A stretch of 64,000 bases of DNA from Candidatus Bathyarchaeota archaeon (GTDB lineage: Archaea > Thermoproteota > Bathyarchaeia > 40CM-2-53-6). The notes under the pieces were generated by a model, which saw nothing but the letters and a program-made list of their open reading frames with translations, was not told where the DNA came from and ran no database searches. Below are positions 167-63,262 of the stretch, in pieces. The translations under genes and the position numbers were made by a program. Location of the stretch: positions 1-64,000 of the forward strand of contig VBBQ01000030.1 in NCBI GenBank assembly GCA_005888755.1, read 5' to 3'. Positions within the stretch are counted from its first letter, which is position 1. Every line of letters starts with the position of its first letter.

Positions 167-793
167 CTAGCCAAGAGGTTCTGCAGAGAACAGGCCTCTA
201 GCAAGTATACCTGCAACCCGCAAAGGTTCAGGCACTCGCGAGACGAATGCCGAAGCTTTCAGGATTAACCTGGCTTCACGAATTGAGCATCCGAACTGTT
301 CAAAGAACACGGGACCTTCACTAGCCATTGTCCGAAGTTTGTGTACTCGACCCAGTGATCTGATCAGTTCCCATCTCTTCTCCCAATCAGGAAAATGTTT
401 GACCAGGGCACGCTTCACAGCCCTGTTATCCGGCCGGGAACCTACAACCACAATCACCGGCGCCTTGCATGATTTCTGGATCTTCCAAGGGTCGATGAGA
501 TTGAATCCTCCGAAGGTTACGCCGGACAACAATACTGGAATGTGGAAGGACCCTCTCACCAAAAACTCGGCCATCTTAGTTGCGTCGAGCCCGTCAACGG
601 TAATCCAGTCAGCTCTGAATTGATGCAGGTGAGGGCCTTTCATCCAGACGGCTAGGAGAGGAGCGTGTCGGACCTTGTCATCGGTTTTCGGCGGAAACGG
701 GCCATCATCTATTCCAATACATCTAGAGACTTGTTTGATGTTTGAGGACGCTCCGTGGAACAAAGGTAAGCAGCCCACGAACCATCTCGTCAA
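167..793 (-). CDS. DUF99 (UPF0215) family protein; true start probably internal to the listed ORF
   Basis: Family-like motifs CIGIDDGPF, ITVDGLDATKMAEF, GVTFGGFNLID, PVIVVVGSRPD. Lies directly after cdc6 on the same strand. Confidence 0.8.
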   Translation of the reverse strand: MTRWFVGCLPLFHGASSNIKQVSRCIGIDDGPFPPKTDDKVRHAPLLAVWMKGPHLHQFRADWITVDGLDATKMAEFLVRGSFHIPVLLSGVTFGGFNLIDPWKIQKSCKAPVIVVVGSRPDNRAVKRALVKHFPDWEKRWELIRSLGRVHKLRTMASEGPVFFEQFGCSIREARLILKASAFVSRVPEPLRVAGILARGLFSAEPLG

Positions 794-1970
794 CGTTGAA
801 TGAGGCGGTCACTGACCGAGCTTCGACGCCGAGCCGTATCTTCTTTGTGCGGCCGTACCGGCCGAAACTTACTACTCGCGCGTTTAGGACGCCCATGATG
901 TCCAGCTCGTTGAGCAGTCCGCTGACTCTTCGCTGGGTGAGGGGTTCGACTGAACCGGCGCTGCACAGCTCGCGGTATACCTCGTATACGTCGCCTGTTA
1001 CCGAGCTCTCTTTCCTAGTATTCTCCAGCTGCATTACGGAGATTAGTAGGATTCGGGAGTGGAGTGGGAGGGATGACAGGGCTTCTGTCACACGGTCATG
1101 TTCGACTTTCTGTTGTGCTTCGCGGACATGGTTTTCGCCGACACGTAGCTCGCGTGATCTTTCGGCAATCTCAGCGGCTACTCTGAGGAGATCGAGTGCG
1201 CGTCGTGCGTCACCGTGTTCTCCTGCAGCCAGGGCCGCGCAAAGGTGGAGAGCGCCTTCATCTAGAACTCCGGATCGGAAGGCGAGTTGTGCCCGTTCCT
1301 TCAGAATGTCATGTAGTTCGTCTGAGGTGTAGGGTTTGAACACGACTTCCTCCTCTCCTAGCGAGCTTAGGACTCTCGGGTCCAGGAAGTCTTTGAAGTG
1401 GAGGTCGTTTGATATTCCTATGAGCCCGATCCAGCCTTCTGTCAGCTTCTCGTTTATCCTGGTTAGCTCGTATAGTAGACTATCGTCTTCGCTTCTCTTC
1501 ACCAACGCGTCTATCTCATCCAGGACGACGAGGAATGCGGAACCGCGTGATTGGAGAGCGCTTCGGAACCGGTCTAGGAGCTCGCCTACTGCGAGTCCGG
1601 TAAATGGGACTTCTCGACCGAGAGATCTGCACAGGTCGGCAATGACTCTGTAGTTTGTTCCTGCGAGACGGCAGTTGACGTAGCTCGTATCGAGGGCTCG
1701 TCCGTGTTCGCGAGCCTTCCGCTGTAACCGATCTAGAACGAATTTGGTCACGATTGTCTTTCCTGTTCCAGTTTTGCCGTAGGCGAAAAGGTTCGACACT
1801 CGATCTTTTGTCAAAGCTGGGGCGAGCACGGATCCGAGCCGGCGGATCTGCTCTTCCCGGTGAGGAAGCGTTGCGGGCATGTAGTCATGTCTGAGGAGGT
1901 TTCGGTCACGAAAGACCTCACCTCCCGCCAGAACCCTCTCGAAGATGAGATCCAATCCTTGCTGTGACAA
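723..1970 (-). CDS. cdc6: Orc1/Cdc6 family replication initiator
   Basis: Walker A (FAYGKTGTGKT), Walker B (FLVVLDEIDAL), sensor-like IGISNDLHF, C-terminal winged-helix region; 415 aa. Confidence 0.95.
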   Translation of the reverse strand: MSQQGLDLIFERVLAGGEVFRDRNLLRHDYMPATLPHREEQIRRLGSVLAPALTKDRVSNLFAYGKTGTGKTIVTKFVLDRLQRKAREHGRALDTSYVNCRLAGTNYRVIADLCRSLGREVPFTGLAVGELLDRFRSALQSRGSAFLVVLDEIDALVKRSEDDSLLYELTRINEKLTEGWIGLIGISNDLHFKDFLDPRVLSSLGEEEVVFKPYTSDELHDILKERAQLAFRSGVLDEGALHLCAALAAGEHGDARRALDLLRVAAEIAERSRELRVGENHVREAQQKVEHDRVTEALSSLPLHSRILLISVMQLENTRKESSVTGDVYEVYRELCSAGSVEPLTQRRVSGLLNELDIMGVLNARVVSFGRYGRTKKIRLGVEARSVTASFNVDEMVRGLLTFVPRSVLKHQTSL

Positions 1971-1989
1971 GCCTGAAACAGTCCGGTTT

Positions 1990-2330
1990 TCTGCGAGCCG
2001 GCTTCCAGTGGAATTAAGGGTTCTCGTACAATGATTTCAACTGGACAAACCAAAAACCCGATCATCGCTCCAAATAATTCCTGCCTAGAGACAGTTTCCC
2101 TTCAACCAGTCCTGCGTCACGAGATGCGCTGTGCAATACCCCCCTCGTTTTTCTTGAGAAGATTTGCTGTCTGGCATTGATAATGGGCGAGTCTCGTGAT
2201 TCAGGGCAGGGTCTGGGCTTTGACCACAGTGCAAGTTAACGTGTAATCTAGGTCAGTTCCCGAACGATTCCCGGGCAAGTCTGGATCCCGGGTCCCAGAT
2301 CATGGATCAGGGCTGAAAACGGGCGATTTA
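1990..2330. other. Candidate replication origin region
   Basis: Intergenic and adjacent to orc1/cdc6. ORB-like CTTCCAGTGGAATTAAGGG (~2002-2020), inverted partner TTTGTCCAGTTGAAAT (~2034-2050, minus), and G-string motif AAAAACGAGGGGGGT (~2137-2154, minus). Confidence 0.5.
2085..2326 (-). repeat. Copy A of a ~240-nt dispersed conserved non-coding element
   Basis: Reverse complement aligns nearly colinearly with 49862-50110. Identical blocks include GAATCGTTC, GCCCTGA, TATCAA, GCCAGACAG, CTCAAGAA and TATTGCACAG. Confidence 0.75.
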
Positions 2331-2394
2331 CGATACAAACTCGCGACATTTTGTTCGTGACAATCTCCGGAGGGTCGAGCGGCTGGAATAGACA

Positions 2395-3483
2395 TTGCAC
2401 TTTGCCATCGGATCAAAGCATAATGCGCTTGAGAATCCCAAAGATGTAAGACCTGGGAAGCCGGTTTCATGCAGTTTGACCAAAATGACTCAATTGTCGG
2501 AACGAACGAACCCCAAGCTGAAAGGACTCAGGGTCTCCGTTCAGTTCAGCAAAGAAGAACTGCAGAAACGACGCTATTTCTTGCCTCCAGCAACAATAAT
2601 CAGTTCCTACGCGGGGAATGATAGTGGGTCGGAAACGGTATTCCACGTCCTTCAACTCGACGGTGCAACACCGTTCACACTGAAAGACGAGCCTGTGGTC
2701 GGGAAACCTAGACTCCGCCGACGTTGGATTTTTGCTCGCTCCAAAAGCGGAGCCTTAGAGAATTTCCTTGAAGGATCAGCTCATTCCGAAAGAGTTGACG
2801 TTGTACTCTACGTGAAACCAGACGATTGCCTTCCCTGCTCAGATATTCTCGACATTCATAATGACATTCTAGAAATCTGCTCCGGAGTTATCGCGTTGAT
2901 GCCCGAGGAGAAGCGCGGTCGAACGAGCAAAGTGCCTCGGACGAGCATAGGTGGAAGGACGCTCACGATTGCAGTGGATAATAGTGAATGGCTTGATCTT
3001 GCTCCGAAGGTCCAGTTGAACAGTGTAATAGAAATCCAACTTTGGATGGGAGCTAATCAGCTTCTGAACCAGTGGGGCAGCAATAGCTCAAGCAAAGAAC
3101 GTCAGCAACTAGGAATCGACGTTTCGGGAATCAATCCAGGGTTGAAACTCATTCAGCTTATACAAGAAACCAATCTGTACCACTTCGCAGGAATCGCAAG
3201 ACGAGTTCTGTCGAGAGAGTACTTCGACCCAACATGGCAAAGAGACAAGGAAAGGCGCGAAATTCTGCTCGACTGTGGATTGCCGATAATCTTTGAGGAG
3301 ATAATTGACCCTGGTGAACCGGTTATCCACGTTCAGAAAGATGGAGACGCCTTGATAGGCTTGGGCTATCTATTCGGATCGATCGCTTTCCCTGGAACAC
3401 GATTCCGAACCTTTCTGGTGGGAAGGGTGATTGGGATTTACGGACATGGACTTTGTCCCTCCTTTTGTTCTGCTGGACGTTGA
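2395..3483 (+). CDS. Hypothetical protein, divergent from cdc6; first residues and C-terminal end uncertain
   Basis: 362-aa open frame with protein-like composition; no family recognised. Confidence 0.55.
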   Translation: MHFAIGSKHNALENPKDVRPGKPVSCSLTKMTQLSERTNPKLKGLRVSVQFSKEELQKRRYFLPPATIISSYAGNDSGSETVFHVLQLDGATPFTLKDEPVVGKPRLRRRWIFARSKSGALENFLEGSAHSERVDVVLYVKPDDCLPCSDILDIHNDILEICSGVIALMPEEKRGRTSKVPRTSIGGRTLTIAVDNSEWLDLAPKVQLNSVIEIQLWMGANQLLNQWGSNSSSKERQQLGIDVSGINPGLKLIQLIQETNLYHFAGIARRVLSREYFDPTWQRDKERREILLDCGLPIIFEEIIDPGEPVIHVQKDGDALIGLGYLFGSIAFPGTRFRTFLVGRVIGIYGHGLCPSFCSAGR

Positions 3484-49837: not shown

Positions 49838-49861
49838 AGTAGAAAACAGGAACTACCAAAC

Positions 49862-50110
49862 TCGCCTATTGTCAGCCTTGATCTCGAATCTGGAAGGGGG
49901 GTCCTAGACTTCCCTCGAATCGTTCAGGAAACGGCTTAGAAACCCTTTCTTTTTGCCATCGGACCTAAGCCCGGATCACGCCCTGATTAGCCCGTCTAGT
50001 CCAGTATCAACGCCAGACAGGAAAGCTCCCTCAAGAAACCCGGGGGGGGGTATTGCACAGAACATCTCGCGACGCATGAGTGGTTTCTTCCAGCTTTCCA
50101 CTAGTATCGT
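49862..50110 (+). repeat. Copy B of the ~240-nt dispersed non-coding element (G9 run + TATTGCACAG)
   Basis: Near-colinear alignment to the reverse complement of 2085-2326; lies between convergent genes. Confidence 0.75.
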
Positions 50111-63100: not shown

Positions 63101-63262
63101 AATCAAGGTTTCATGAAGGGCGGGGCGCGAAAATCGACCACCCCCGGGGGGGTCACTGTGAAAAGAATATTTGGGAAAATGGTTGGCGAGAATGAAAGGC
63201 TACGAAACCAAGTGTGATGTCGTCTAACAACAATACCGCGGCTTGGGGGTAAGCCAAGGTTC

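Follow-up and report, generated by a model that had tools for sequence, protein, structure and literature searches.

An old family of dispersed intergenic repeats in Bathyarchaeia, with one copy upstream of orc1/cdc6

The window considered here is a 64,000-nt stretch of a soil Bathyarchaeia genome (positions 1-64000 of contig C25 of the source genome, G000, which comprises 2.01 Mb in 48 contigs). Within it, a non-coding sequence upstream of an orc1/cdc6 gene (copy A) recurs on the opposite strand between two convergent genes (copy B), which raises the question of what such a sequence is and whether it belongs to replication. The original prediction described a two-copy element and offered three readings: a recognition region for a replication initiator, a structured non-coding RNA, or a non-autonomous mobile element. 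The features of the window are as follows.

723..1970, minus strand: orc1/cdc6 gene, given for context (Pfam Cdc6_C 1.5e-27, Cdc6_lid 6.2e-25)
2003..2051, plus strand: origin-like dyads TTCCAGTGGAATTAAGGG at 2003 and TTTCAACTGGACAAACC at 2035, outside the element (from the alignment of cdc6 upstream regions)
2109..2329, minus strand, 5' end at 2329: copy A, core of the dispersed element (profile match 1-218, 182 bits; alignment to copy B)
2306..2329, minus strand: copy A box 1, AAATCGCCCGTTTTCAGCCCTGAT (conserved block in 30 copies)
2198..2220, minus strand: copy A box 2, AAGCCCAGACCCTGCCCTGAATC (conserved block)
2167..2191, minus strand: copy A box 3, CTCGCCCATTATCAATGCCAGACAG (conserved block; region of the G014 inversion crossover and of a linkage dip)
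2104..2144, minus strand: copy A 3' block, GGGGGGTATTGCACAGCGCATCTCGTGACGCAGGACTGGTT (conserved block)
49859..50082, plus strand: copy B, element core flanked by two convergent genes (profile match 1-220, 177 bits)
49859..49882, plus strand: copy B box 1 (conserved block)
49967..49989, plus strand: copy B box 2 (conserved block)
49996..50020, plus strand: copy B box 3, CTAGTCCAGTATCAACGCCAGACAG (conserved block)
50042..50085, plus strand: copy B 3' block with a long G-run (conserved block)

A dispersed, intergenic family

The near-colinear likeness of the two stretches is real: once reverse-complemented, 2329-2104 aligns over its full length with 49859-50085 at a score of 524, against 143 ± 20 for 200 dinucleotide shuffles (largest 211), and two further scoring schemes again placed the pair far above every shuffle. 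The identical blocks named in the original prediction were found in both copies, the G-run differs in length between them, and they have no open reading frame in common. The label "two-copy", however, is true of the 64-kb window alone. BLAST returned 31 matches to copy A in the source genome, and a first sequence profile, built from 30 copies, returned 69 at E<=0.001, of which 51 exceeded 80 bits. Across 1.09 Mb of this genome, including the surroundings of nearly all profile matches, 71 copies lie in 59 clusters, with 12 tandem pairs.

The conserved core spans ~219 nt, from AAATCGCC to CTCGCGACGCA-GAG-TGG, and is followed by a variable tail of ~25-30 nt, giving a tandem period of ~245-250 nt. 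Box 1 (AAATCGCCCATTATCAGCCCTGATC) forms the 5' end of the core; a variable middle, box 2 (AAGCCCGGATTGCGCCCTGA), box 3 and a 3' block with the consensus GGGGGT(A/C)TT...CTCGCG-CGCA-GAG-TGG complete it. Read directly from the alignment, boxes 1 and 2 have a GCCC-N7-GCCC pattern in common, and the first half of box 1 recurs in box 3. The ends of the element, AAATCGCCC... and ...CTCGCGACGCAAGAG(TGG), do not form an inverted repeat. Copies are about 60% alike (or about 60-70%), and each species carries its own version, with a consensus that differs strongly from those of other species. They occur singly or as head-to-tail tandems of two to three, and all 49 multi-copy clusters from the source and other genomes keep a single orientation. 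Tandem neighbours are no more alike than unrelated copies (0.58 vs 0.61); the tandems are therefore not fresh local duplications.

Conservation extends well beyond the window. A second profile, which included diverged copies and was used for the distribution count, detected the element in every one of the 18 genus members sampled and in two of three sister genera (G018 and G020), but in none of 17 genomes from five other families of the order. Four genomes (G005, G013, G015 and G018) hold 55-61 or more copies each. A 21-nt box-1 pattern also occurs in the metagenome-assembled genomes Candidatus Bathyarchaeota archaeon BA_3, BA_9, BA_21, BA_25 and others, as well as in two 13_1_40CM "Crenarchaeota" MAGs, while two exact box patterns found no match among IMG/VR viral contigs. 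A literature search on Bathyarchaeota and on archaeal intergenic repeats yielded no description of the element; this old, vertically kept family of dispersed repeats is new.

Placement figures are approximate, as genes were called by a simple, crude hexamer method. All 166 unique copies lie clear of called genes. In the source genome, 19 of 50 intergenic regions that contain the element lie between convergent genes, compared with 55 of 358 other regions of >=150 bp (odds ratio 3.4, p = 3e-4), and elements stand at a median of 69 bp from a 3' end and 192 bp from a 5' end. Orientation relative to tandem genes follows no rule (10:9). This placement is at odds with a 5' leader or with a promoter-linked switch. 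A recurrent neighbour gene was considered as a possible enzyme and rejected, the sole family adjoining five elements being secreted PKD/propeller-type proteins. No copy split by a gene, which could have pointed to an autonomous transposon, was present among the 69 profile matches.

Exchange of copies and turnover of sites

We consider it probable, at roughly 0.6, that copies A and B belong to a long-lived, non-coding, non-autonomous intergenic repeat that is dispersed through the chromosome and has been inherited throughout one family of Bathyarchaeia. Of the three original readings, the mobile element fared best: site turnover and frequent copy exchange speak for it, although terminal inverted repeats, target-site duplications and a mobilising enzyme (Y1 transposases and tyrosine recombinases were searched) were not found.

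Among clusters of other genomes with both flanks placeable in the source genome, 61 of 67 have an element there, a proportion inflated by the choice of part of the compared sequence around elements. With the distant genomes G016 and G018, none of four comparable sites is shared. In the closest relative available, G014, 29 clusters correspond one-to-one to those of the source genome. Hardly any new insertions separate these two, which counts against mobility, yet in several clusters the copy has been exchanged between flanks still ~95% identical (for example 14_38/00_27, 14_30/00_30 and the left half of 14_4/00_39). In other genomes, copy pairs 90-99.5% identical over the whole element lie in unrelated flanks, with no target duplication visible at their ends; such pairs fit either gene conversion or transposition.

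Over longer times, sites are gained or lost. One site, between a pair of convergent genes, holds no element in G001, G007, G015 and G017 (stop codons <~20 bp apart), whereas G000, G004 and G006 carry one there and G005 carries one in reverse orientation, a pattern best explained by independent gain. The filled alleles carry extra unrelated flanking DNA, and neither a clean insertion junction nor a target duplication is visible. Other apparently empty sites from the site-sharing comparison showed no clean junction on inspection and were discounted.

Movement of the element is supported indirectly. New copies would arise rarely, through some mobilising activity, and would settle where they do least harm, at 3' ends and between convergent genes; recombination between copies, preferentially at box 3, may then keep those of a species alike and now and then rearrange the chromosome. 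Against the mobile repeat, ordinary ectopic gene conversion could yield much of the mosaic pattern, and the occurrence of the element in each genome sampled from the genus would also suit a function conserved in the host.

Known intergenic repeats offer several comparisons, among them the BOX-type repeats of pneumococci and ERIC, a large palindrome, which the Bathyarchaeia element is not. Being dispersed, intergenic, non-coding, non-autonomous and present in many, also clustered, copies, the element resembles the REP/REPIN sequences associated with RAYT (Y1) transposases (PMC3116915). REPs, however, are short palindromes, paired as inverted doublets and associated with a Y1 transposase (PMC3116915), whereas the present unit measures ~220-250 bp, lacks palindromic doublets and resides in genomes without a Y1_Tnp match (PF01797, 0 of 21 genomes of the family; controls positive), which argues against a RAYT/REPIN type. 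With MITEs (for example PMC10969869), it has in common that it is a short, non-autonomous repeat, shows site turnover and serves as a recombination substrate; unlike MITEs, it has no terminal inverted repeats, and no target-site duplication was visible. ERIC/RU and BOX of enterobacteria and pneumococci (RU: PMC2759123) are likewise 100-250 bp long, intergenic and modular, with a conserved centre and no known mobiliser, but their sequences are unrelated and the head-to-tail tandems are a feature of the Bathyarchaeia element. In its ends, arrangement and enzyme, the element fits none of the known repeat classes tested.

Recombination inside the element

Relative to the source genome, G014 carries an inversion of the ~6-kb segment between the elements C10:88017-88463 (plus strand) and C10:94735-94948 (minus strand). 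One product matches the latter element (96-98% identical) from the left flank up to ...AATCACTGCCAGAC, where the match ends, and the other joins that element from AATCACTGCCAGAC onwards, with the crossover inside the two inverted copies and within this 14-nt stretch of box 3. The order of the source genome is kept in eight relatives, which places the origin of the inversion in the G014 lineage. Its two junctions come from different contigs and are mutually consistent, and an assembly error, while possible, is unlikely because the repeats share only short identities. Here, then, is a lineage-wide, high-copy intergenic repeat of Bathyarchaeia that recombines even though its copies are so divergent, and this raises a testable question: what recombines such repeats, and is the exchange directed to box 3?

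One answer would make the element a dedicated site-specific recombination site, with box 3 as the cutting core of a recombinase and boxes 1 and 2 as accessory binding sites, so that copies exchange, delete or invert DNA. We regard this as unlikely, although several observations point towards it. Besides the confinement of the inversion crossover between divergent copies, the left-half exchange of 14_4 vs 00_39 switches at box 3. Linkage within the element, measured in 185 main-clade copies by correlating the pairwise distances to the left and right of a point, falls to r 0.26 at box 3 vs ~0.5 either side, and no dip marks the equally conserved GCCCTGA of box 2. Box 3 also contains a weak dyad, scoring 0.47 against a background of 0.24 ± 0.08 in the main clade and 0.52 in G016, but it is not seen in G018 and lacks covariation beyond column composition. 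A second linkage dip (0.30) falls at the AAAA/GGGGG junction, and both dips recurred in 60 of 60 bootstraps; when a gap of 16 columns is imposed throughout, the dip at box 3 persists but is milder (0.27 vs 0.38-0.48). Other exchanges switch before box 2 or in the AAAA/GGGGG stretch, and copy 14_21 combines the left part of one source-genome tandem copy with the right part of the following one, at the AAAA/GGGGG dip. A role for box 3 as a dedicated crossover site is therefore suggestive only. A histogram of the ends of high-identity segments, tried as further evidence of crossover, was confounded by unequal conservation and set aside.

The only tyrosine-recombinase match above cut-off in the source genome is a 202-aa protein without an N-terminal domain (C37:56984-57592). 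Seven other genomes of the family (G006, G007, G009, G010, G014, G016 and G017) encode it at 85-97% identity, making eight with the source genome, which is compatible with a dedicated recombinase. It was not found, however, in G005, G013, G015 and G018, all of them rich in the element, a result qualified by the draft state of the genomes. This protein is a candidate for the mobilising or recombining enzyme, not an answer. Its locus (L248:15541-17592, equivalent to C37:55541-57592) contains a GIY-YIG gene between two small genes of the tyrosine-recombinase type, which encode products of 211 and 202 aa with the catalytic domain only. In the distant genomes G009 and G016, the 202-aa protein (88-89%) is better conserved than Cdc6 (80-81%).

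Archaeal dif sites consist of 11-nt arms around a 6-nt spacer, and inversions in archaea are caused both by integrases and by homologous recombination between related elements (PMC8371274). As at such tyrosine-recombinase core sites, the crossover of the one mapped inversion falls in a short conserved stretch, and DNA between inverted sites is inverted; unlike dif, the element has a weak dyad without covarying arms, tens of divergent copies and no consistently present recombinase (PMC8371274). The wider proposal of a chromosome-wide archaeal recombination system, with ~70 divergent sites of ~220 bp per genome, a box-3 core (GCCAGACAG), accessory boxes and a dedicated recombinase serving exchange, deletion and inversion, seems to us quite improbable.

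Host element, RNA or origin

Alternatively, the element may be a conserved DNA element of the host, such as the site of a chromosome-organising protein or a boundary or terminator between genes, which selection would preserve and gene conversion would keep homogeneous. Its occurrence throughout the genus (18 of 18 genomes) and in two sister genera, the GCCC-N7-GCCC half-sites of which its boxes are built, the excess in convergent regions near 3' ends and the many sites common to close species would all suit such a role. Single copies, however, are freely exchanged, truncated or absent, distant species share none of the comparable sites, and neither a fixed orientation nor a consensus stable between species is found, which makes this account improbable.

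That the repeat acts as DNA rather than RNA appears well supported. A family of structured or regulatory RNAs is highly unlikely: RNAalifold energies (30 and 138 copies) do lie below those of column-shuffled controls, but on both strands, the reverse folding as well as the forward; 190 copies yielded no covarying pair at E<0.05 against a null in which the changes of each column were scattered over the tree; Rfam scans were silent even at E<=1, with RNase P and 23S rRNA recovered in a control (L025); and the element has no conserved promoter block upstream and no fixed relation to genes.

Least credible of all is an origin or Orc1/Cdc6 recognition region, for although an element precedes cdc6 in G000, G001, G004, G006, G007, G010, G013 (two copies) and G014, about 70 copies lie elsewhere, mostly beside genes unrelated to replication, and in front of cdc6 G005 and G015 lack the element, while G017 has lost most of it and retains a remnant. 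No dyads resembling origin recognition boxes occur within the element; the TTCCAGTGGAA dyad, at 2003-2013, lies outside it. By contrast with the element, the block between it and cdc6, with the dyads at 2003 and 2035, is almost unchanged across species. We take these dyads to resemble archaeal origin recognition boxes, so the origin is likely to lie in this block and not in the element. The proximity to cdc6 is thus a warning against reading such repeats as origins.

Several further observations concern this region. A ~50-bp piece of the origin block (GATCG.GTTTTTGGTT.GTCCAGTTGAAATCATTGTACGAGAACCCTTAAT; window 1980-2085) also lies beside an element copy on contig C12 of the source genome, near 66800. 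Gene order upstream of cdc6 differs between the source genome and most relatives, and the origin region therefore seems to have been rearranged or duplicated. This rearrangement was dropped as a case of recombination between element copies, as its breakpoint falls downstream of the element, within the origin block, and the G014 cdc6 element has its ortholog in the copy at C12:66605. G008 and G016, both distant species, also have an element ~200 bp upstream of the second orc1/cdc6 paralogue (L190:1376-1826 and L191:2859-3066), which may be due to chance given the tens of copies per genome. The window from ~1200 to 3230 is 100% identical to contig C83 of G001, a bin of another species whose other compared loci are 78-87% identical to the source genome; recent transfer or bin contamination is possible.

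Finally, a second, different dispersed intergenic motif, approximately CTCGACCCCCGGGGGTAGTCGATTTTC...CGCCCNGCCCTTCAT, occurs at seven places in the part of the source genome examined: position 63134 of the window (minus strand), C25:102559, C27:7762, C3:17141, C3:52758, C8:3365 and C13:15173.
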